Source: Alphaproteobacteria bacterium (GTDB lineage: Bacteria > Pseudomonadota > Alphaproteobacteria > GCA-2731375). Taken from it: a DNA stretch of 37,467 nt. The notes below the pieces were generated by a model, which saw only the letters and a list, made by a program, of their open reading frames with translations, did no database searches and was not told where the DNA came from. Every line of letters begins with the position of its first letter. Within the stretch, counting starts at the first letter, position 1. The DNA lies in NCBI GenBank assembly GCA_028824965.1, contig JAPKBD010000004.1, positions 1 to 37,467 of the forward strand. The letters are read 5' to 3'. Made by a program: the position numbers and the translations under genes. Below, one piece after another: positions 23,830 through 36,999 of the stretch.

Positions 23830-23894
23830 TTGCCTTTCGCCTCCATTCCTGCTTTCCATGGAGCTTAAAGCATCCTGCTTGAATGGAGAAGCAC

Positions 23895-24710
23895 ATGGCT
23901 GATCTGCGTATATTTTCATACATCCCGAACCCCCGCATATGGAAGGCGACGATTGCAGCGCGCCTTTGCGGGGTGGACGTGGAATTGCGCGGGGCCAAAC
24001 CGGGGCAACTATCGGAATGGCTTTGGGATTATGACGCCCGGCCCTTGAACAATGTTGATCGTGCCCGAGGGAAGGAATTGTTGCGGCAAAGCCGAACCGG
24101 CTTCAACACTGAACTGTACAAAACCGATGGCTTTTTGGCGGCGCATCCATTTGGCACCGTCCCGGCGGCATTCGGCCCGAACGGTGATATTGGCATTTTT
24201 GAATCCAATTCTATCGCCAGGGCTGTTGCGCGATTGCGACGTCATGGCCCTGCCTTGTATGGGGATGATCCATATGAGGCATCCCGGATTGATAGTTTTC
24301 TGGATGTTAGTTTGGTCTTTGCCTTGGCCGGACAGAATTATCTTCTCGCCCTAAACAACAATGCCATTACAGCAGACATCCACGGCCAGGCCCGCAAAGC
24401 CTTCACAACGTACATGGCGGGGATGGAGGCGGCGCTTTCGTCCTCGCCAAGCTATCTGGTGGGCGATGACATCACCTTGGCCGATATTGTCTTCGTTGCG
24501 GAACTTTGTTCATTCGCCAGAGAGGCGGTGCATCTTGAACGTTTGTCCGAGCATGGCCTGGAAATCATCTTTCAGCCGGATGCAACGGCGGCTTCGTATC
24601 CTACGGCGATAGCTCATTTTGATGAGCTATGTCAGGGTCCGGCGTTTGTGCCGGACATAGCGCCGTTTATGGAGAAGCTGGAAGCTCGCCGGGAGGCCGG
24701 TTTTAGTTAA
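23895..24710 (+). CDS. glutathione S-transferase-like protein
   Basis: MADLRIFSYIPNPRIWKATIAARLCGVDVELR thioredoxin-like N-terminus; C-terminal YLVGDDITLADIVFVAEL. Track start at 23883. Confidence 0.85.
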   Translation: MADLRIFSYIPNPRIWKATIAARLCGVDVELRGAKPGQLSEWLWDYDARPLNNVDRARGKELLRQSRTGFNTELYKTDGFLAAHPFGTVPAAFGPNGDIGIFESNSIARAVARLRRHGPALYGDDPYEASRIDSFLDVSLVFALAGQNYLLALNNNAITADIHGQARKAFTTYMAGMEAALSSSPSYLVGDDITLADIVFVAELCSFAREAVHLERLSEHGLEIIFQPDATAASYPTAIAHFDELCQGPAFVPDIAPFMEKLEARREAGFS

Positions 24711-25070: not shown

Positions 25071-26627
25071 CTAGAACTGAACCATAATCTCGGCCCGTGC
25101 GCCGGAGCCGTTGTCGCGACCTTCAAGATAGGCAACGAACCCATCAAGTTGCAACTGCACGTGCTGCCCAATTGCTTGCTGGAACTGTACAGTAAACGCA
25201 GCGGCATCGGTGCCGTCGCCATCAGTGCTGAATATATTCCGGGTGTTGTCTTTCAGACCAGCCAACTCCAGAACCAGATTGCGGCGATGATTATCCCAAA
25301 ACGCCTGGTAGCCAATAGCAATACCGGCGACCTGGGTATTGAAGCCGCTCAACTCCGACAGGTGGTTGCCCAAGCTGGGAGAGGCGAATGAGATGCCCAA
25401 GGGTGCCAAAGGACCACCGACGACCGGTTCGCGGCTAACCTGGGTAAAGCGGTCGAAACCATAAAACGGGTTGATATAGACAACGTCGTCAGAACTATGC
25501 GGCGTCCAGGAAATCTCTGCCGAGACCAATACACCGTCAGAGGAGAGCGAATTGTCCGTCTCGTCAGCAATGGATGCGTTGATGCGATAGGCGGTATTGA
25601 AACTTGCAAGACGGCTCCATGGTGTCCAGGAACGTTGTGACGCGGAAATGCCGATATTTACACTGTCGCCGCCTGCGAAATTGTCATCATCATCAACGTG
25701 AATGATATCCAAGCCCCATGTTGTGGTCGGATCATCTGCCTGAAGGAATAGACCGTACAAGCCGCCGGGCTGGTTCAAGCGTTGGCGATTTGAAGGCGCA
25801 CCGCGGTCAATTGAGCCCCAGGAATAGACCGCTGTGGCGCGAATGTTGGAAATACCGGGGGCATGCATATTGTTGCGGACGATACCAACCGAATCCAGGA
25901 AATCATTGATCATGATACCTTCCTGGAAGTGGATCCGTTGCCGGCCTACAGAAAAGCCCCAATCGACAAATTTTGTGCCCTTAGGATCAAGATTTGGAAA
26001 TAACGAGCCTAAATCACCTTCACAAAAGGCTGTGCGGATAAACGTACCCAATTCGGACCGACCGCCTTCTTCACCCTGATGGGATTCCCAGCTGTATCGC
26101 GTGAAATTCGTGAAGCGGTTTTTATCGAGAGGCGCGACACCGACAATGCATTTTTCTGTCGACGTTAATTGCAGGTTGGCGAACAAATCCAGACGTGTCA
26201 CTAGCTCGGTGTTGCGGCCAACGGGGCCGACCGATTCGTAGGTCTGCATAGCCGCACGCCATGTACCGAATACCCAAAGGCATGGCGTCCAAACCGCGCC
26301 GCCCGGAATATTGATACCCTGGGGAATATTGCCTTTACCCAGGAACTTACAGCCCGCCTCGACAACCAGTTCCGGACGTTCCTGGGGAACGACATAAGGT
26401 AATGCTTTGTCTGACAGCAATGGTACCGGAGTCACTTCGCCCAAAGGATACAATCCAAAGAGGCTTTTGGCGTGGCTGTCCGCGGCTGTGCCAACGGTTA
26501 CCGCAATTGCGGCTGTCAGGACTGTCGCCAGTGTACTGTTGCGAAACCAATCATTTCGTCCAGTTTGCTTTTTCATTATCGGTGCCATTCTAAGCTCGCC
26601 TCTCCGATTCAACGGTTTTGTATACAT
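25071..26627 (-). CDS. outer-membrane beta-barrel (porin-like) protein
   Basis: Signal peptide region STLATVLTAAIAVTVGTAADSHAKS, alternating hydrophobic strands, C-terminal ...RAEIMVQF ending in Phe (outer-membrane barrel signature). Likely start at MKKQTGRN. Confidence 0.72.
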   Translation of the reverse strand: MYTKPLNRRGELRMAPIMKKQTGRNDWFRNSTLATVLTAAIAVTVGTAADSHAKSLFGLYPLGEVTPVPLLSDKALPYVVPQERPELVVEAGCKFLGKGNIPQGINIPGGAVWTPCLWVFGTWRAAMQTYESVGPVGRNTELVTRLDLFANLQLTSTEKCIVGVAPLDKNRFTNFTRYSWESHQGEEGGRSELGTFIRTAFCEGDLGSLFPNLDPKGTKFVDWGFSVGRQRIHFQEGIMINDFLDSVGIVRNNMHAPGISNIRATAVYSWGSIDRGAPSNRQRLNQPGGLYGLFLQADDPTTTWGLDIIHVDDDDNFAGGDSVNIGISASQRSWTPWSRLASFNTAYRINASIADETDNSLSSDGVLVSAEISWTPHSSDDVVYINPFYGFDRFTQVSREPVVGGPLAPLGISFASPSLGNHLSELSGFNTQVAGIAIGYQAFWDNHRRNLVLELAGLKDNTRNIFSTDGDGTDAAAFTVQFQQAIGQHVQLQLDGFVAYLEGRDNGSGARAEIMVQF

Positions 26628-26635
26628 CCCGATCG

Positions 26636-28777
26636 CTATTTGACGTTGATCGTTACGTTTTCCTCATACAGAACTTCGCGGCCATCAACCACAGCCTTGG
26701 CCACATCACGCGGACTGATGCCGTAATCAAAACCAACCACCTGAATAGCCGTTATAAGATTGATGGGGAACATCTGTGCCATCAATTCGAACTTGGCATT
26801 GTATGTGCCCTTGCCTGTCAGCAATTCACTATCGACTTCGTAATCGGCGATACGATGGCCCAATGGCTCGATCCCCTTGCGATGGTTCCGCTCTACTGTG
26901 GATTCCCCGGTCAAGATCAAGGACAGTCGGGTTGGCCGCAGGAATGGCAAAGAGGTCGTCGAATAAGGAATGGTAACAGTCCGTTCCCGTTCGCCACCGC
27001 GAACACTTTGCACCAGGAAGCGCGATTGTAGCGAGAATAACTGCGTATCAAGGGGCATTTCGCCCGCATGTACGAAGGCGGATTCGTTATCACGAACATC
27101 GCCATTGGAATCCGTATCGCCCGATTCGAACACCACCTTGCCGTCGCTGTTTGTAACAGTGACCCGCAGCCAGACCAGCCGCTCGCCGGTAAAGCCTGTC
27201 GGTACGTTATGCCCTTCGGTGATATTGGAAACCTTGGCCTGCAATTCGATGCCGCCCATGGTCGCCTTGTTGACCTTAACATCGCTCAACAGATAACCGT
27301 TGCGCAATACTTCCAGTCGCAGCTCCCGCACACTCGCCAGGCGCTTGAATTGATAATTTAGGATTTCCCGGGCGTCATAGCGGGCGTCCACGGATGCCCA
27401 TGCTTTGGGGAATACCTTATTGGCCGGGACGTTATCCTCAAACTCATCAGTGCCCCAGCCGGCCTTGTGATCGTAGGTCAGCCATTCCGCCAGGGTCGCC
27501 AGCTGTTGCGCCTCGGCGTTGTGGGGGAAGATACCCGGATGCACCAGGGAATAGTCAGGCCCGGCCATGATGTGATTTGTCAATTTACGCGGCTCGGTCG
27601 GGACACCGCCGACAACGGCAGCAGGCCCTTCATGATAGCCTGACGGGATGCCTTGCACTTTGCCCATATGGCAGTCCTGGCAGGTGATGCCTTTGGCCGC
27701 TGCCGGCCCGGAGCGATATTCGCTGAAGGCTTCTTCCAGCCGGAAACCATTTAACAGCGTCACATCGTGACAGGTGCCACAGAATGTGGAGCTGGACATT
27801 TCTTTAAATTCAATGACTTCCGTATGAATTTTGCGGCCAGGTTCGTCGGCCTTTGTGACAACCCGGTATTTGTCGCGGTTATCCAATACCCGCTTCAACT
27901 CTGCATCGCCTTTCGGGCCATAGACGGGCTGTAGCAGGTCGCCCTCAACCAAGGCAACGCGACCCGACGCCTTGTTATAGATATTTTTGACCCGGTGACA
28001 GACGATACAGGTGATGCCTTCGCGGCTGGTGGGGTGGCGTTCCAAGTTGGAAATCCCGGTCGCCTCTCCCATGTTCATGCCGACTTGGTTATGGCAGCGA
28101 ATGCAAAAATCGCCGTTGGTGCCATTAACCTGGGAATTAACAAAATTCTGAAAGGCCATATAGGCCGGGCTCAACTGAGCATAAGAATGCTGGGAGACGG
28201 ACCATTCTTCGAAATGGCGGGGATGGCAGGTGCCGCATGTGGTCGCTGAGGGATAGCGGCTTTCCGCAAACAGGGCGGCATGTTCTTTACCGGCAGCATT
28301 TTTCACTTTACCGGCTGCGGCGGTGTCTTTCATTTCCGCCTTTTCGTCTTTATCTTCGTCGTCGTCATCGTCATCGTTCAGCAGACCATCATCGTCATCA
28401 TCATCGTCATCTTTATCTAAAAGGTCGTCTTCTTCCTTTTTGGCCTGCGCCAACAGCAAGGGAGAGGCAGCGATCATCCCGGCCCCGGAGGCCTCTAAAA
28501 CAAACGCGTCCAAAATGGGGGAGACGATAACTGCAGAGCTATTAACCGGCGCTATCAATGGGGCTGTATCCAACGGCGCGCCTGCCGCCATGGCAGGTCC
28601 CACAGATCCTGCCGATATCGGCAGCAGCAAAAGCCCGGCCAGAACAGCGCCAACCAAAGCACCAGGGGCCATCACTGCGCCAGGGGCTATCGTTGCCGTA
28701 ATTTTGGCACCGTCGCCGGCCTTGAAAAAATTGCCGTACCGTTTGATTTTCTGCGCCATGGTTATCCGTCCCATCAC
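26636..28777 (-). CDS. multiheme (5 x CXXCH) c-type cytochrome with Asp-rich linker
   Basis: CGTCH, CIRCH, CIVCH, CGTCH, CQDCH; hydrophobic N-terminal export signal; DDLLDKDDDDDDDDGLLNDDDDDDEDKDEK; C-terminal beta-rich region. Alternative start MAQKIKRYG. Confidence 0.88.
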   Translation of the reverse strand: MMGRITMAQKIKRYGNFFKAGDGAKITATIAPGAVMAPGALVGAVLAGLLLLPISAGSVGPAMAAGAPLDTAPLIAPVNSSAVIVSPILDAFVLEASGAGMIAASPLLLAQAKKEEDDLLDKDDDDDDDDGLLNDDDDDDEDKDEKAEMKDTAAAGKVKNAAGKEHAALFAESRYPSATTCGTCHPRHFEEWSVSQHSYAQLSPAYMAFQNFVNSQVNGTNGDFCIRCHNQVGMNMGEATGISNLERHPTSREGITCIVCHRVKNIYNKASGRVALVEGDLLQPVYGPKGDAELKRVLDNRDKYRVVTKADEPGRKIHTEVIEFKEMSSSTFCGTCHDVTLLNGFRLEEAFSEYRSGPAAAKGITCQDCHMGKVQGIPSGYHEGPAAVVGGVPTEPRKLTNHIMAGPDYSLVHPGIFPHNAEAQQLATLAEWLTYDHKAGWGTDEFEDNVPANKVFPKAWASVDARYDAREILNYQFKRLASVRELRLEVLRNGYLLSDVKVNKATMGGIELQAKVSNITEGHNVPTGFTGERLVWLRVTVTNSDGKVVFESGDTDSNGDVRDNESAFVHAGEMPLDTQLFSLQSRFLVQSVRGGERERTVTIPYSTTSLPFLRPTRLSLILTGESTVERNHRKGIEPLGHRIADYEVDSELLTGKGTYNAKFELMAQMFPINLITAIQVVGFDYGISPRDVAKAVVDGREVLYEENVTINVK
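28351..28440. repeat. degenerate GAT/GAC trinucleotide tract coding poly-Asp
   Basis: cttcgtcgtcgtcatcgtcatcg and catcatcgtcatcatcatcgtcat runs inside the cytochrome gene. Confidence 0.75.
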
Positions 28778-29152: not shown

Positions 29153-30478
29153 ATGACCCAGGCAAACGAACTTACCGCCAGCCAGGCGCGGGCAGCAATG
29201 GACCGAGGCGACCTCAGGGCTGAAGACCTTGTGCAGGCCTGTCTGGAGCGGATTGCGATGCGGGATGCTGACGTCAAGGCCTGGTGCCATTTGGCGGCGA
29301 AGCCAAGCCTGGCTGCAGCCAAAGTCATAGACCGGGCATTGGATCAGGCGTCGGAACAGCCTGGCGCGATCGACAAAGGCGGCCCCTTGGCCGGTCTGCC
29401 TATCGGCGTAAAAGACATTATCGATACCGCTGATATGCCCACCACATACGGCAGTGCCGTATATCCCGATCACCGGCCCACTATGGATGCGGCCTGTGTG
29501 GCTCTGGTGCGGGCGGCGGGCGGCATCGCCTTGGGCAAGACGGTGAGTACGGAATTCGCCTATTTTCAGCCGGGCAAAACCACCAACCCTCATAATCCAG
29601 GCCATACACCGGGCGGGTCTTCATCCGGCTCGGCCGCAGCGGTCGCCGATTTCATGGTGCCCTTTGCCTTTGGCACACAGACGGGCGGCTCAGTCATTCG
29701 CCCGGCCGCCTTTTGCGGTGTCGTCGGCTACAAGGCAAGCCATGGTGCCTTGCCGCTTTATGGGGTGAAGGCGTTGTCCCATGATCTTGATACCTTGGGC
29801 TGGTTCTGCCGCGAAGTGGCGGATATCCATCTTATGCGTGCTGCGCTGGTCGGTGCGCCGGCATTTGTTTCGGACCCGGATCTGAAAATGAATGGGGTGC
29901 CAAAAATAGGCCTTTGTCGGACCTATGAATGGGATCAGGCGGATGACGACTGCCAACGTGCGGTCCTTGCCGCTGCCAAAAATCTAGAGGCCGCCGGCGC
30001 TGAGGTCGTGGATATCACCCTGCCGCCATCCTTTGCTGACCTGGTGGATAGCCAAAAGCGGGTGATGGCACAAAATGCCGCGCGTGATCTGGCCTTTGAA
30101 TATTATCAACACCGGGATCGCATGAGCAGCCATATCATCGCCCTGATCGAACAGGGACAGGGGGTGGATTTTGCCACCTATCAGAACGATGTCGCCGCGA
30201 CGGTCGCCGGACGGGCAGCTTTGCAGGGGATTTTCGCGCAGGTCGACGTTCTGCTCTGCCCCAGTGCACCGGGGGAAGCACCAAAAGGCTTGGATAATAC
30301 CGGCGACCCAATATTCAATCGGCTATGGACTCTATTGGGCAACCCTTGTGTAAATTTACCGGGCCATACGGGCAGTCATGGCTTACCCGTGGGCGTCCAG
30401 GCCGTCGGGGCCATGGGTCAGGACGAGGCGCTGTTGGCCCATTGCCGCTGGATGGAGCGACGGGTACTAGGCTCGTGA
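29153..30478 (+). CDS. amidase (amidase signature family)
   Basis: GVKDIIDTADMPTTYGS, GGSSSGSAAAVADF, GTQTGGSVIRPAAFCGVVGYK; AGGGAG upstream. Confidence 0.92.
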   Translation: MTQANELTASQARAAMDRGDLRAEDLVQACLERIAMRDADVKAWCHLAAKPSLAAAKVIDRALDQASEQPGAIDKGGPLAGLPIGVKDIIDTADMPTTYGSAVYPDHRPTMDAACVALVRAAGGIALGKTVSTEFAYFQPGKTTNPHNPGHTPGGSSSGSAAAVADFMVPFAFGTQTGGSVIRPAAFCGVVGYKASHGALPLYGVKALSHDLDTLGWFCREVADIHLMRAALVGAPAFVSDPDLKMNGVPKIGLCRTYEWDQADDDCQRAVLAAAKNLEAAGAEVVDITLPPSFADLVDSQKRVMAQNAARDLAFEYYQHRDRMSSHIIALIEQGQGVDFATYQNDVAATVAGRAALQGIFAQVDVLLCPSAPGEAPKGLDNTGDPIFNRLWTLLGNPCVNLPGHTGSHGLPVGVQAVGAMGQDEALLAHCRWMERRVLGS

Positions 30479-31385: not shown

Positions 31386-32765
31386 TCAGGACGACTTCGA
31401 AATGTGGAAACAATGATGTAGGGGTAGGCTTTCGACGCGAACACCTTCGAACCGCCCCGAGACCGACTGCAATTGGGCCAGAACCCCGCGCACTTCATCC
31501 AGTTCCATGCCGGGGAATTTTTGGTTGGCATAGTCCGCTGCCCGGCCACCACGGACCAGACGTCGCACCTTGGGTCGAATGGCTGTTGCCAGCCGTGTGA
31601 CAAGGCGACCCAGTCGCGCAACGGGCCCTTGGGCAAAGCCAGCCACGGGACAATCAAGGCCCGCCAATTCATCGGCAATATTGTCCGCGGCCAAGGCACC
31701 TGTGGCGGCCGCAAGATAGTGTCCCGCCTGATCACCAATATTATCGGGCGGCCCCATGGTTCCATCAGTCAGCGCTGTAATGGTGTCGATCAATTCATCG
31801 GCGCTATAGGCGTTCCGGCTCAACACATTGGGCAGGTGAGAATCTACCACTACGTCCGTGGCCGGTCGGTAAGCGGCGACAGGGACGCCAAGGACATGGG
31901 CCTCAACCCCCGTTGTGCAGGAATTTTGCAGAACGCAATCGGCACCCAAAATCCACGGTATGACATTGCCGTAATGCAGTACCTGAACATTATCCAAGCC
32001 AGCCGCCGCCTCACCCCACGCACCATGATCCTCTGATGGATGGGGGCGCAGAATAATCGTATGATCGGGAAAGGCCTTTGATAGATCGGGCAGGGCAGCG
32101 GCAAAGCCATGGAATATTTTGCCGATGAAATCGATCCAGTGCTGTACCGCTGCTTGTTCGTCAGCGGTTTTTATACCGCCCCGTTGTCGCTGTGCCTTGA
32201 TCCAGAAATCGGATCCAAGGAAATGATTGAAGCGGCTGAAATTGGTGTTGATCAATAGATAGCGGCCATGACGATCCTGATGGGCCTTGGCCTCATCCGC
32301 AAAGATGGCGCGAAATTCCGGGCGCAACAGATCAAAGCGCGGATTGCCAATAGCCCGAATTTTTGCCGCTGCGTCAGGCAACTTATAGGCAATGTCATCC
32401 GCCTGGTTCTGCCCCCAGGCAAAAAACCTATCGACAAACCCCATGGCCTCAGGCGAGATACGTTGATGCAAATAGGTATCCCGGTCCCGATAGACCACGC
32501 CTTCCTCGCACCAGGCGCAAACCAAATAACCGCTGTCCCGCAGTAATTTGAAATGCGCTTCCTTGGTGCAGGCGATGCTTTTGTCCACATAGATGCCGAC
32601 AGGCAAATGAGGCAACTGCGCCAGGATAGCGTTTTGGTCACCCATTAAGACATCGAAGCCGCGTTCGGCAGCAGCTGCCGCCAACAACGTCTTGGCATGA
32701 AACTCCCGCGCCTTGGTTTCAATGGGCAGCAACAGCCAGCGCCGGGGCTGAGATAGATTATTCAT
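31386..32765 (-). CDS. surface carbohydrate biosynthesis protein, CDP-glycerol glycerophosphotransferase-like
   Basis: RRWLLLPIETKAREFHAKTLLAAAAAERGFDVLMG, FFAWGQNQADDI, AIGNPRFDLL, TIILRPHPSEDHGAW. Start MNNLSQ (32765) overlaps the upstream stop by 4 bp. Confidence 0.75.
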   Translation of the reverse strand: MNNLSQPRRWLLLPIETKAREFHAKTLLAAAAAERGFDVLMGDQNAILAQLPHLPVGIYVDKSIACTKEAHFKLLRDSGYLVCAWCEEGVVYRDRDTYLHQRISPEAMGFVDRFFAWGQNQADDIAYKLPDAAAKIRAIGNPRFDLLRPEFRAIFADEAKAHQDRHGRYLLINTNFSRFNHFLGSDFWIKAQRQRGGIKTADEQAAVQHWIDFIGKIFHGFAAALPDLSKAFPDHTIILRPHPSEDHGAWGEAAAGLDNVQVLHYGNVIPWILGADCVLQNSCTTGVEAHVLGVPVAAYRPATDVVVDSHLPNVLSRNAYSADELIDTITALTDGTMGPPDNIGDQAGHYLAAATGALAADNIADELAGLDCPVAGFAQGPVARLGRLVTRLATAIRPKVRRLVRGGRAADYANQKFPGMELDEVRGVLAQLQSVSGRFEGVRVESLPLHHCFHISKSS

Positions 32766-34120
32766 CGACGCGGCCCCTTGGCGATTTCCGCCCATACGGC
32801 ATCGGCCACACGGGCACCTGCCTTACCATCTGCATTGCCGGTCCATTTTTCCAATAGAGCCAACGCCGCTGGCGACAAATCGGTCACCACGACGCGCGGG
32901 GCCTGTAAGTGGCGAACGACGTGTCCAGCCATATCATCGTCCGAGCGGCCATAAGACACGGCAGCTTCCATATCCAGGATGTAGGGCAGATTTTTTTCGT
33001 CCACGGCCTCGGCGAATTGCGGGCACACAATGGGTTTGCCGGCGGCCAGTGCCTCCAGCAATGCGGTACTGGTGAAACCGCAAACCACATCAGAAGACAG
33101 GATCAGATCCAGGGGGTCGCCGCCCTCTACAATTTTCAGGTTGTCCGGTATCTCGCCAGCCTGGGCCATAAGCTCGCGGGCGGCATCAACTTCATACTTA
33201 CCGGATTTGGTTTTTACGATGACTGTAGCTTCAGGCATCTGCCGGGCCACGATGACGGCAGCCCGATGGTAACCGGCGGCCAACTCATCCCAATGCAACG
33301 CTTCCAGACCATGGTCCACATCCCGGTCACCCAGGCCGTCGGGATCATATTTTCGTGGGATGCGGGGCAGGCCTGTCTTGGCGGTGAAGGAAAAGAACAA
33401 CGCCTGTTTCGGCCCCGACGGCGCCTCACCCTTTGCGCGCCAGGCATGGACGGGATCCAGGCGGGGCATGCCGACGATGATCACCCGGTCACTGGGCAAC
33501 ACACCAGCGCTGACCTGGATGCGTTTTTCAACTTGGTTATAGACCAAGGTGCACCGGCCCTCGTACGGCCCGCGCCGGTCCTGATAGAAACTGGTGAAAA
33601 ACGGCTCCAACCCCGGCGTCTTCAGGTTCTCTTTATGCAAAGGAATAAAGGGCGTGCCGAAACCCTCTAGCGCCGCAGCCAACGGACGTTCAGCATAATA
33701 GGCAAAGTTGGCGGACAACACCGCATCATAGGATCGATAGGTAATCAGGCGCTGCCACACCCTACCCACGAATGCCTGATAGGCCGCCTTCCCGGCGACG
33801 GTGGCCGGGTCATCAGTTTTATAGCTGTGATCATCCAGGGTAGGGGGGCAAAAGGCGGAGATCATCGCCTTCAGGGCCTTGACGTTGACCTTGTCGAAAG
33901 CAAATAGCCGGAACCTGGGGTCTGCACCAAAGGCTGCCTGGGCGTCCTCGGCCAGACCTTGTTTGGAGATCAACAGCAGGTTCACCGCATCCCCGTTGGT
34001 CTTGCTGGGAATTTCGCTGATGACATTATGCAGCAATCGCGCAGCCAGGTGGGCTAGGTTCGCCTTGGCCGACCAGCGAAAAGCAAACCACCAAAACTCC
34101 CTGATCAAGCGGCGGCTCAT
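32762..34120 (-). CDS. glycosyltransferase-like protein, paralogue B
   Basis: HKENLKTPGLEPFF, YNQVEKRIQVSAG, VGMPRLDPVHAW, DVVCGFTSTALLEALAAGKPIVCPQFAEA; GT-B-like C-terminal half. Confidence 0.65.
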   Translation of the reverse strand: MSRRLIREFWWFAFRWSAKANLAHLAARLLHNVISEIPSKTNGDAVNLLLISKQGLAEDAQAAFGADPRFRLFAFDKVNVKALKAMISAFCPPTLDDHSYKTDDPATVAGKAAYQAFVGRVWQRLITYRSYDAVLSANFAYYAERPLAAALEGFGTPFIPLHKENLKTPGLEPFFTSFYQDRRGPYEGRCTLVYNQVEKRIQVSAGVLPSDRVIIVGMPRLDPVHAWRAKGEAPSGPKQALFFSFTAKTGLPRIPRKYDPDGLGDRDVDHGLEALHWDELAAGYHRAAVIVARQMPEATVIVKTKSGKYEVDAARELMAQAGEIPDNLKIVEGGDPLDLILSSDVVCGFTSTALLEALAAGKPIVCPQFAEAVDEKNLPYILDMEAAVSYGRSDDDMAGHVVRHLQAPRVVVTDLSPAALALLEKWTGNADGKAGARVADAVWAEIAKGPRR

Positions 34121-34848
34121 GCGCGCCCAGCCCCACCCTCATTTTCGAGGATATAATAACGGATGGCCCGGCTTTCGTCCTCATCGTCAAAGACATCGAC
34201 AATGGTCAGACCCTGGCGGGCGAAGATGGCGCGCATGTCCCCGTCGTGATACCGGCGGGTCTTTTTCCCTTCACGTCCGACAACAGCACTTAGCATCGTG
34301 CGCACGCCATCACGCAACAGCCATCGTGCGCGCTTAATCGCGGCGGCAACCCCTCCGGCTTGCGGCCCACCATCGGCGGTCACCTTGACCTGGATCAACA
34401 TACGTCCCGTGGGGCAGATGCGGGCGAACTCGCCAATGACGTTTTCCACAACGGCCAGGTTCGGCAGCCATTTTATAAAGCGTGTGCTGACCACGGCATC
34501 CGCCGCGCCATTCGCAAACGGCAGATGTTCCGCATCCGCGACCCGGACATCCAGCTGGCAAAATATTTCTGCGCCCATACGGTCGGCAGCAGCAGCAATC
34601 ATATCGGCCGAGATATCCGCGCCAATAACATTCAAGCCATGGGCAAGATAATCATCCACATAGCGCCCGGTGCCAAAGGGCACGTCCATAACCGTCGCAT
34701 CCGTCGATCTGGCAGCAATGTCGGCAATGAAGCCGGCAACGACCGCCTGCTCCCGGCCCCAATGGGGTTTCTCCACACGCCGGTCGTCATAGCCAGCAGC
34801 AACATTGCCCGCATATTTTTCTTTGGCGTGATAGCTGTCATTCGTCAT
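34117..34848 (-). CDS. class I SAM-dependent methyltransferase
   Basis: ATVMDVPFGTGRYVDDYLAHGLNVIGADISADMIAAA, DAEHLPFANGAADAVVSTRFIKWLP. Confidence 0.87.
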   Translation of the reverse strand: MTNDSYHAKEKYAGNVAAGYDDRRVEKPHWGREQAVVAGFIADIAARSTDATVMDVPFGTGRYVDDYLAHGLNVIGADISADMIAAAADRMGAEIFCQLDVRVADAEHLPFANGAADAVVSTRFIKWLPNLAVVENVIGEFARICPTGRMLIQVKVTADGGPQAGGVAAAIKRARWLLRDGVRTMLSAVVGREGKKTRRYHDGDMRAIFARQGLTIVDVFDDEDESRAIRYYILENEGGAGRA

Positions 34849-35608
34849 TCTGTTCTCGCAAATCGGCTAGGCCGGTTATAACAGCATCGCAAGGTGCTTC
34901 GCCGGTTAGATTGATCAATTCCTGTAGCCAGTCGCCATGGATAAATCGGATCGAGCATGTAACCCGTTTCAGTTTGGCCTGTTGGGCCAGGGCCAGGCGG
35001 TGATGGCCCTTGCGGAAGTGGCATAGCCTGCCATCCCGCCCAACGGCAAGACCAATATCTGCATTGCGCCGATACCGCCGGTCACTGGGATCAGCGGCAC
35101 GATAACCATTGACGCGCATGTCCTGGTAGATGTCCGAATAGGATTGGCAATATTCCGTGATCGCCGTGACATTATCCAAATACCGCCCCCCATGACGGCG
35201 CGGACCTCCCGCCTCCATCGCCGCAATCAACGCCCGGTGGGTGCGGCTGTCCGTCACATCCTCCACGCCTATCAGGCCCGCCATCTCCACCGCGGCGCGG
35301 GTCTGGGCAAAAGGGGTCGTGTTTCGATCCCAATTATCAGGAACCACGAAAAAATGGCGCGGTTCAACAACCAACCCCCGTACGGTGATGCGTTTGGGTA
35401 CGGTGTCCGTGATTTCACGGGGGTCAATTTCCAGGGATAGGTCACGGCCGAACAAACTATCGGCCAAGCCAAAGGTAACGCCAATGCTGTCGTTGGCGAC
35501 ACAGCGACGGGCCTGGGCATCAAAGATAGCCGGTGCCAGGGCACGGCCGGGTATGCTGCGCCACAGGCCATCACGCAGGGCGCCGATTTGGGCGCGCAGG
35601 CCGCTCAT
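34838..35608 (-). CDS. hypothetical protein with ParB/sulfiredoxin-like core motif
   Basis: VGRDGRLCHFRKGHHRLALAQQAKLKRVTCSIRFIH resembles the GxHRLAxA motif of ParB-like domains; embedded in a glycan operon. Confidence 0.5.
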   Translation of the reverse strand: MSGLRAQIGALRDGLWRSIPGRALAPAIFDAQARRCVANDSIGVTFGLADSLFGRDLSLEIDPREITDTVPKRITVRGLVVEPRHFFVVPDNWDRNTTPFAQTRAAVEMAGLIGVEDVTDSRTHRALIAAMEAGGPRRHGGRYLDNVTAITEYCQSYSDIYQDMRVNGYRAADPSDRRYRRNADIGLAVGRDGRLCHFRKGHHRLALAQQAKLKRVTCSIRFIHGDWLQELINLTGEAPCDAVITGLADLREQNDE

Positions 35609-36999
35609 ACCTTTGAACCTGCAATGACGGTAAATACCGCGTCGGCTATGCGGGTACCGGAGCGACCGTCTGCATTACCCAGCCAATGGTCCAGGGCAGC
35701 GCGCGCCGTATCGCCCAGTTCCGTTCCATGGCCACTTGCATGCGCGACACGGGCGCGGGCGACCAGCTGGGTGACAAGTTCATCCGCCGACGCGGCGGTT
35801 TCCACCGCCATGCCAAGGTCCATCATATAGGGAACGTTGGCGGCATTCGTCGCCTCGGCGAAGACCGGAACAATGACCGGGACCCCTGCGGCCAAGGTTT
35901 CCAGCAACGCGGTGGAGTTAAAACCGCAGACTACGTCCGCCTGGGTGATCAAATTAAAAGGATCGCCGGAGGTGACCAAAGTTAGATTTTCCGGAAATGA
36001 ATAGTCCTCACCATAGACTTCACCCAAAATGCCCCGGGCTCGCAAATCACCCTTTGACTTGATAACGACGTCCAGGCCCGGGTTCTCTTGGGCCACGCGC
36101 ACAATGGCCTGGTGGCAGCTGCGCGACAATTCGGGCCAACCGATGGCCTCCAACTCTGGCGCCAAAGTTTCCCGCGCAGGGGGAAATTGTTTGGGCCATT
36201 TTCGTTGGATCAGCGGCGCGCCTGTTTTCGGTGCAAAGGAAAAAAACAACACTGTTGGTCGTGACCCGGTCCGTCGCACGGCACCTTGGGAGCCGCGCCA
36301 TTGGTGGATCTTATCCAGGCGCGGCATACCCGTAACCATCACCGCGTCCGCCGCCGCCATACCGGCGGCCACTTCGATATTCTTTTCGATTTGATTGTAG
36401 GTGCAAATGGCCCGACCCTGAAACGGCAGCTTTCGCTCCCGATACAGGTTCTCAAAAAATGCTTCCAGGCCTGGTGTCTTCAGGTTTTCTTTGTGCACCG
36501 CAATCACGGCGGTGCCATGGGCATCAAGTGCGGCAGTAAATTCCTGTTCCGCATGGTAGCCAAAATTAGCCGTCAGAACGCCGCCATAACGACGCGCCGG
36601 GTCGATACGTGACCACACGTCGTACCAGAATTTCCGCAACGCCGCCTTTGGTGCATCAAATTCGGCGGGCGCGGAGATGTAATTCTTGTCGTCAATGATG
36701 GGCGGCAGGAAGGCGCGAAAGACCGTCTTTAACAATAGGCGGTCAAAAGCATGGATGCGGAACCGTGGGTCATGGCCCAACGAGGCCGCGATATCTTCAA
36801 CAAAGCCCGGTTTGGGCAGCACGATGATATCAAGGGCGGCACTGTCCCGGGGCCCCTTGGTCAACGGTATGATTTGCGGGCGCAGCAACACGGCCGCCCA
36901 CCCAGCCCAACCGCGTCGGGCGCAAAGCCTTAACAAGGGCACCGCAAGGCGAAGGCCCAAATGCCGGCGCAGACGATATCTGAGAGACGTTGTATCCAT
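35605..36999 (-). CDS. glycosyltransferase-like protein, paralogue A
   Basis: HKENLKTPGLEAFF, YNQIEKNIEVAAG, TGMPRLDKIHQW, DVVCGFNSTALLETLAAGVPVIVPVFAEA; colinear with 32762-34120. Confidence 0.65.
   Translation of the reverse strand: MDTTSLRYRLRRHLGLRLAVPLLRLCARRGWAGWAAVLLRPQIIPLTKGPRDSAALDIIVLPKPGFVEDIAASLGHDPRFRIHAFDRLLLKTVFRAFLPPIIDDKNYISAPAEFDAPKAALRKFWYDVWSRIDPARRYGGVLTANFGYHAEQEFTAALDAHGTAVIAVHKENLKTPGLEAFFENLYRERKLPFQGRAICTYNQIEKNIEVAAGMAAADAVMVTGMPRLDKIHQWRGSQGAVRRTGSRPTVLFFSFAPKTGAPLIQRKWPKQFPPARETLAPELEAIGWPELSRSCHQAIVRVAQENPGLDVVIKSKGDLRARGILGEVYGEDYSFPENLTLVTSGDPFNLITQADVVCGFNSTALLETLAAGVPVIVPVFAEATNAANVPYMMDLGMAVETAASADELVTQLVARARVAHASGHGTELGDTARAALDHWLGNADGRSGTRIADAVFTVIAGSKV

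Follow-up and report, generated by a model that had tools for sequence, protein, structure and literature searches.

What is known of electron exchange at the bacterial outer membrane comes chiefly from a handful of iron oxidisers and anaerobic metal respirers. Does a two-gene locus from an alphaproteobacterium encode another route of this kind? The locus lies in positions 1 to 37,467 of contig JAPKBD010000004.1 (assembly GCA_028824965.1), hereafter the window, and consists of a gene for an exported multiheme cytochrome, PHC, followed by a gene for an outer-membrane β barrel, BAR. A preliminary description, made from the sequence of the window, had read the two genes as a candidate porin–cytochrome module. 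We find that the pair appears to form the distal part of a hitherto undescribed electron chain from NAD(P)H to the outer membrane, in which a tightly linked porin–cytochrome pair and a complete inner-membrane NAD(P)H feed recur together over many phyla.

Both open reading frames (ORFs) were verified on the minus strand of the window:

26636..28777, minus strand: PHC, exported pentaheme c-type cytochrome, 713 amino acids from GTG, with ATG alternatives a few codons in; matches Pfam Cytochrome_C554 and PDB 5ze8
25071..26627, minus strand: BAR, outer-membrane β barrel of about 18 strands (AlphaFold model, Foldseek), 518 amino acids, C-terminal Phe

The features first reported for them, an exported cytochrome with five CXXCH motifs and then a signal-peptide protein ending in MVQF, are all present. 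The intergenic gap of 8 bp holds if the longest BAR ORF is taken; the likelier start is the ATG at 26588, judging by the GGAGAGG upstream of it (minus strand), and the gap would then be 47 bp.

Conservation of the PHC–BAR pair

The preliminary description made its reading depend on conservation of the pair in relatives, and the pair proved to be conserved well beyond them. Downstream sequence of 700 bp or more is available for 76 PHC genes, and at 75 of these loci BAR directly follows PHC on the same strand, counting one gene fusion described below. The single exception is the first PHC of a tandem pair, whose second PHC precedes BAR. The survey of 289 alphaproteobacterial genomes detected PHC in 25, all of which (25/25) carry BAR, and BAR in 27; in the two genomes without PHC, BAR lies at the very start of a contig. 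These counts, and the lack of a match to any known family, contradict the suggestion that the barrel might be a well-known substrate porin normally found without the cytochrome. The distance matrices of PHC and BAR (48 pairs) are also correlated (r = 0.81; 0/2000 permutations as high, maximum 0.21), a correlation to which shared ancestry contributes.

In a Saprospiraceae metagenome-assembled genome (MAG), PHC, an acidic linker and the barrel form one ORF of about 1080 codons (L084:7866-11105). The signal peptide of the barrel is absent in all three frames, which would place the hemes on the periplasmic, N-terminal side of the barrel. The fusion is not a simple frameshift; it rests on one MAG and needs confirmation. 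Taken together, pairing, co-occurrence and fusion support PHC–BAR as a dedicated porin–cytochrome unit, and that part of the preliminary reading which gave it an architecture of its own stands.

Two further observations concern these loci. A Verrucomicrobiales MAG carries two tandem PHC genes before one barrel gene (L066:2161-6447). A MAFFT alignment that combined the L084 fusion with rows of unfused PHC and BAR was discarded, since it set the barrels against the cytochrome part of the fusion, at 13–18% identity.

The pair was found in at least ten phyla (counted from submitters' titles), including Nitrospinota, Alphaproteobacteria, Planctomycetota, Acidobacteriota, Verrucomicrobiota and SAR324, and most loci come from MAGs. 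Since both the pair and its five-CXXCH pattern are kept across this range, the observation is not due to chance. A maximum-likelihood tree of PHC groups sequences mainly by phylum. A gammaproteobacterial MAG falls within Planctomycetota, and Omnitrophota and Latescibacterota MAGs fall within Alphaproteobacteria; binning errors may account for part of these placements. Among cultured bacteria the pair is carried by Thalassobaculum litoreum, two Nisaea species and Tistlia consotensis, so the function is open to genetic testing.

A recurrent seven-gene module

Neighbouring genes were clustered over 80 loci, many of them cut by contig ends. Five further families recur, at 38–44 loci each, and in most phyla PHC–BAR belongs to a seven-gene module, which lay beyond what the preliminary description could see. 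FADred combines FAD_binding_6, NAD_binding_1 and Fer2 (2Fe-2S) domains with one N-terminal hydrophobic helix; C554 is a c554-like tetraheme cytochrome; cNMP-FeS joins cyclic-nucleotide-binding domains to 4Fe-4S ferredoxin domains. The fourth family, cytb, is a diheme cytochrome b with four invariant His in two helices, the two His of each pair 14 apart, and weak matches to b561, DUF4405 and ferric reductase, while the fifth, MHC1, is membrane-anchored and carries 6 or 10 hemes. Summed over the module, c-type hemes number at least 15, and no extracellular surface lipoprotein cytochrome is evident in it.

Across the 289 genomes, cNMP-FeS occurs in 20: 18 with PHC, one with BAR only and one with neither detected. 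Seven PHC genomes have no close cNMP-FeS, and several of these have divergent versions. Two divergent carriers (L115:1422-3812 and L117:12058-14472) encode a cNMP-FeS with a fused Pyr_redox FAD domain and no separate FADred nearby. This domain is unrelated to FADred, so that two different NAD(P)H flavoproteins occupy one slot; the replacement of one by the other is the best evidence for NAD(P)H as the cytoplasmic partner.

Contig C365 of the window's own genome carries FADred, C554 and cNMP-FeS in one group and stops just past them; in a congener (L121) the full module set adjoins PHC–BAR.

Three details of the module genes may be recorded here. L111:1-5500 and L121:1-3800 have csaA-like and TetR neighbour genes in common, which suggests that in the window's lineage the pair moved from, or never adjoined, the remaining module genes. 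The tetraheme C554-like gene on C365 (L111:6814-7887) reads CGERH where its relatives read CGECH, which is either a lost first heme site or a sequencing error. MHC1 homologues (e.g. L033:12508-14397) have a Cys-rich N-terminal segment ahead of the membrane helix, predicted to be cytoplasmic and possibly a metal or Fe-S site; it is absent in Acidobacteriota.

Sequence and predicted structure of PHC

PHC begins with a signal-like segment and a strongly acidic low-complexity stretch (an Asp/Glu run), and contains exactly five CXXCH motifs, all of them within residues 181 to 370. Its parts are as follows:

28340..28444, minus strand: acidic linker with Asp runs, predicted disordered from sequence and the predicted local distance difference test (pLDDT), about residues 112-146, from signal segment to heme domain
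28223..28237, minus strand: heme motif 1, CGTCH, residues 181-185, conserved in 55/56
28091..28105, minus strand: heme motif 2, CIRCH, residues 225-229, invariant
27995..28009, minus strand: heme motif 3, CIVCH, residues 257-261, invariant
27767..27781, minus strand: heme motif 4, CGTCH, residues 333-337, invariant
27668..27682, minus strand: heme motif 5, CQDCH, residues 366-370, invariant
26639..27295, minus strand: β-rich C-terminal domain, about residues 495-713 by AlphaFold secondary structure, with the invariant His523 of HNVPTG

Five CXXCH motifs are found in 79 of 81 homologous cytochrome ORFs, the remaining two being one short and one end-truncated ORF. The acidic N-terminal extension occurs in many homologues, not in all, and AlphaFold gives a pLDDT below 50 across residues 51-159. 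The large β-rich C-terminal domain predicted at the outset is seen in the AlphaFold model from about residue 495.

Searches with the single sequence gave generic multiheme matches only, with Cytochrome_C554 (Pfam) at 31.3 bits, and the top PDB match was 5ze8, the pentaheme cytochrome c552 of Thermochromatium tepidum. A profile of 56 PHC homologues matched 5ze8 with an E value of 3e-15, the HxxPTG motif of the C-terminal domain included, and 5ze8 was the sole convincing structural match of the AlphaFold model (E 3e-11, template modelling (TM) score 0.67 of target). T. tepidum c552 is a homologue of PHC, and Geobacter ExtKL a distant one. In a plasmid collection the pentaheme matches were only distant (24–26%).

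Besides the five heme-bound His, residues His 166, 197, 318, 402, 523 and 632 are kept in at least 55 of 56 PHC sequences. With these six further histidines all five hemes could be bis-His, so that either transfer or catalysis would be possible. The models of both proteins were built without hemes.

Sequence and predicted structure of BAR

BAR has an N-terminal signal peptide and ends in ...MVQF. Its AlphaFold model (mean pLDDT 83.6) contains 19 longer strand segments, which fits about 18 transmembrane strands and agrees with the barrel proposed in the preliminary description. The Foldseek neighbours of the model are AlgE, OprD/Occ channels and MOMP (E ~1e-10, TM ~0.6-0.69 of target). None of 61 BAR homologues has a porin or outer-membrane family match in Pfam or NCBIfam, and no solved structure matches BAR by sequence.

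The near-invariant Arg, Asp and Glu residues are mostly on the inferred lumen face, alternating residues being assigned by hydrophobicity. They comprise R124, R145, R229, R251, R263, R332, R348 and R511 and the acidic residues E141, D147, D245, D298, E371, E454 and E513; the outer face is hydrophobic and less conserved. One conserved segment is a candidate plug or docking surface:

26283..26378, minus strand: N-terminal segment before strand 1, residues 84-115, with invariant R84, E90, L96, G99, G110 and P115

Surroundings of the pair in the window

The flanking genes, one glutathione S-transferase-like (23883–24710, plus strand) and one encoding an amidase (29153–30478, plus strand), are unrelated to the pair, which therefore stands alone within the window. 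Scans for promoters and terminators gave scores not above those of shuffled sequence. At 31386-36999, three large ORFs without clear family (31386-32795, 32762-34120 and 35605-36999) lie beside methyltransferases; two of them have sub-threshold matches to DUF6716 glycosyltransferases, and the region looks like a surface-polysaccharide cluster.

Possible functions of the chain

We give an even chance to the proposal that a trans-envelope chain driven by NAD(P)H has as its last member a pentaheme reductase docked beneath a pore of its own, on the pattern of Geobacter ExtI/ExtKL. PHC and BAR would then be one functional outer-membrane unit at the distal end of this chain. Electrons would pass from NAD(P)H to the membrane-anchored FAD/2Fe-2S reductase, then to the 4Fe-4S protein gated by its cyclic-nucleotide-binding domains, and on to the four-helix diheme cytochrome b, which would take them across the inner membrane. 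The anchored 6- or 10-heme cytochrome and the c554-like tetraheme would ferry them over the periplasm to PHC, sitting at the periplasmic mouth of BAR, a pore of about 18 strands with a conserved charged lumen. There PHC would most likely reduce a small soluble acceptor (an oxyanion, a chelated metal or a shuttle) entering via BAR, which would be a substrate or product channel, not a sheath round a heme wire. Sequences and models show the pair and its conservation, the gene content of the module, the barrel fold and the homology of PHC; the docking, the order and direction of electron flow, the catalysis and the substrate are our inference. Several points weigh against this proposal. Bis-His ligation at all five hemes, which the conserved histidines could provide, would favour transfer over catalysis. 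The inward and outward faces of BAR come from strand alternation, not coordinates. A redox centre could still come near the surface in a barrel of 18 strands with a small plug, and the neighbouring genes point to no substrate.

PHC might instead sit partly within BAR, or dock tightly to it, and deliver electrons to minerals, humics or partner cells outside, as a heme-poor variant of the porin–cytochrome conduits. The exclusive pairing, the L084 fusion gene and the 15 or more c-type hemes of the module all fit a true conduit. Cyc2-type proteins are cytochrome–barrel fusions, and the L084 fusion is formally similar to them. In Geobacter, moreover, mineral reduction can run through the pentaheme cluster extHIJKL (PMC6148476). 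However, BAR has about 18 strands against the 26 around MtrA (PMC7198977), and a globular pentaheme protein is unlikely to fit inside it. Conserved charged residues probably line its lumen, the module shows no surface lipoprotein cytochrome, and classical metal respirers are absent among the listed carriers. Barrel size and charged lumen speak rather for a pore through which a docked reductase is supplied; a conduit, for which pairing and fusion still speak, we consider unlikely though well short of far-fetched, and one of the MtrAB or Pcc type, as first envisaged, is not supported for a pentaheme protein with a partner of about 18 strands.

The chain is formally reversible, and electrons might also run from an extracellular or periplasmic donor through PHC and the flavoprotein to NAD(P)+, in the manner of lithotroph reverse electron transport. 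The carriers include Nitrospinota, a nitrite-oxidiser lineage, and bacterium MnTg02, but also heterotrophs such as Thalassobaculum and Nisaea. No proton- or sodium-pumping subunit recurs in the module, so that reducing NAD+ uphill with electrons of a high-potential donor would be hard to drive, and reverse flow seems to us improbable. We attach just as little probability to a periplasmic reductase, driven by NAD(P)H, that would serve detoxification or metal assimilation (through reduction of Fe(III) or a metalloid, for example), with BAR as a general uptake porin linked to it by a common promoter and nothing more. The flavoprotein and diheme b layout does resemble ferric reductase and the fold of BAR is of the substrate-channel type, but BAR without PHC was not found where contigs allow, and the L084 fusion argues against mere promoter sharing.

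The docked-reductase proposal can be extended to a new class of trans-envelope redox system, spread among mainly marine bacteria of at least ten phyla. It would not depend on quinone, would draw its electrons from NAD(P)H under the control of a cyclic nucleotide, and would have PHC docked on its own family of outer-membrane channels, reducing an abundant, unrecognised environmental acceptor. This extension is tentative, and we would sooner expect it to fail in some part than to hold as a whole. Neither the pair nor the module was found described in the open-access literature; a new reductase and a new conduit would each be a respiratory function without such a description.

Comparison with known systems

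In Geobacter, the porin ExtI adjoins the pentaheme ExtKL, and loss of extI impairs the reduction of selenite and tellurite, not of Fe(III)-citrate (PMC5877670). With extHIJKL as the sole conduit cluster, the reduction of Fe(III) oxide and of Mn(IV) oxide persists at up to 50% and 75%, respectively (PMC6148476). These phenotypes provide a precedent for both pore-type and conduit-type behaviour. The cluster extHIJKLMNOPQS resembles the module in placing a porin-like barrel by a PHC-family pentaheme, together with tetraheme and 10/12-heme cytochromes and an inner-membrane cytochrome b. However, PHC is not a member of the ExtKL family (36.8 bits on NF040886 against a curated cut-off of 250), and ExtI is phosphate-selective-porin-like, whereas 0/61 BAR homologues match such porins (compared via Pfam only). 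The rhodanese lipoprotein (ExtH) and the Rieske protein of the ext cluster are absent from the module's recurrent neighbours, which include instead an NAD(P)H flavoprotein and a cNMP/4Fe-4S protein.

The family to which PHC belongs unites c552, Geobacter ExtKL, Gsu2801, cytochromes of cable bacteria and, by structure, the nanowire subunit AvECN (PMC11976967). PHC shares with T. tepidum c552 (5ze8) and this family five hemes followed by an immunoglobulin-like/β-rich C-terminal domain with HxxPTG, although its identity to c552 is about 14% in the structural alignment. That paper relates members of the family to the extracellular nanowires AvECN/PcECN; here 5ze8 alone gave PHC a convincing structural match. 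No description that was found includes the barrel partner or the module.

MtrAB, PioAB and MtoAB likewise have an outer-membrane barrel gene adjoining that of an exported multiheme cytochrome. MtrB wraps 26 strands around the decaheme MtrA (PMC7198977), and these systems thus differ, with 10 hemes in a 26-strand sheath, from the five hemes and about 18 strands found here. The Pfam family MtrB_PioB matches 0/61 BAR homologues, and PHC is not a decaheme of MtrA/DmsE type (27.6 bits on TIGR03508 against a cut-off of 192.2). The modelled barrel size and the conservation of the probable lumen argue against an MtrA-like insertion of PHC in BAR. The best fold matches of the predicted BAR model are the 18-strand channels AlgE and OprD (Occ), with which it shares about 18 strands and, by inference, a charged lumen. 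Sequence identity to them is 5-14%, and none of the 61 BAR homologues belongs to the AlgE, OprD or DUF1302 families by Pfam or NCBIfam; unlike these channels, BAR is tied to a cytochrome.

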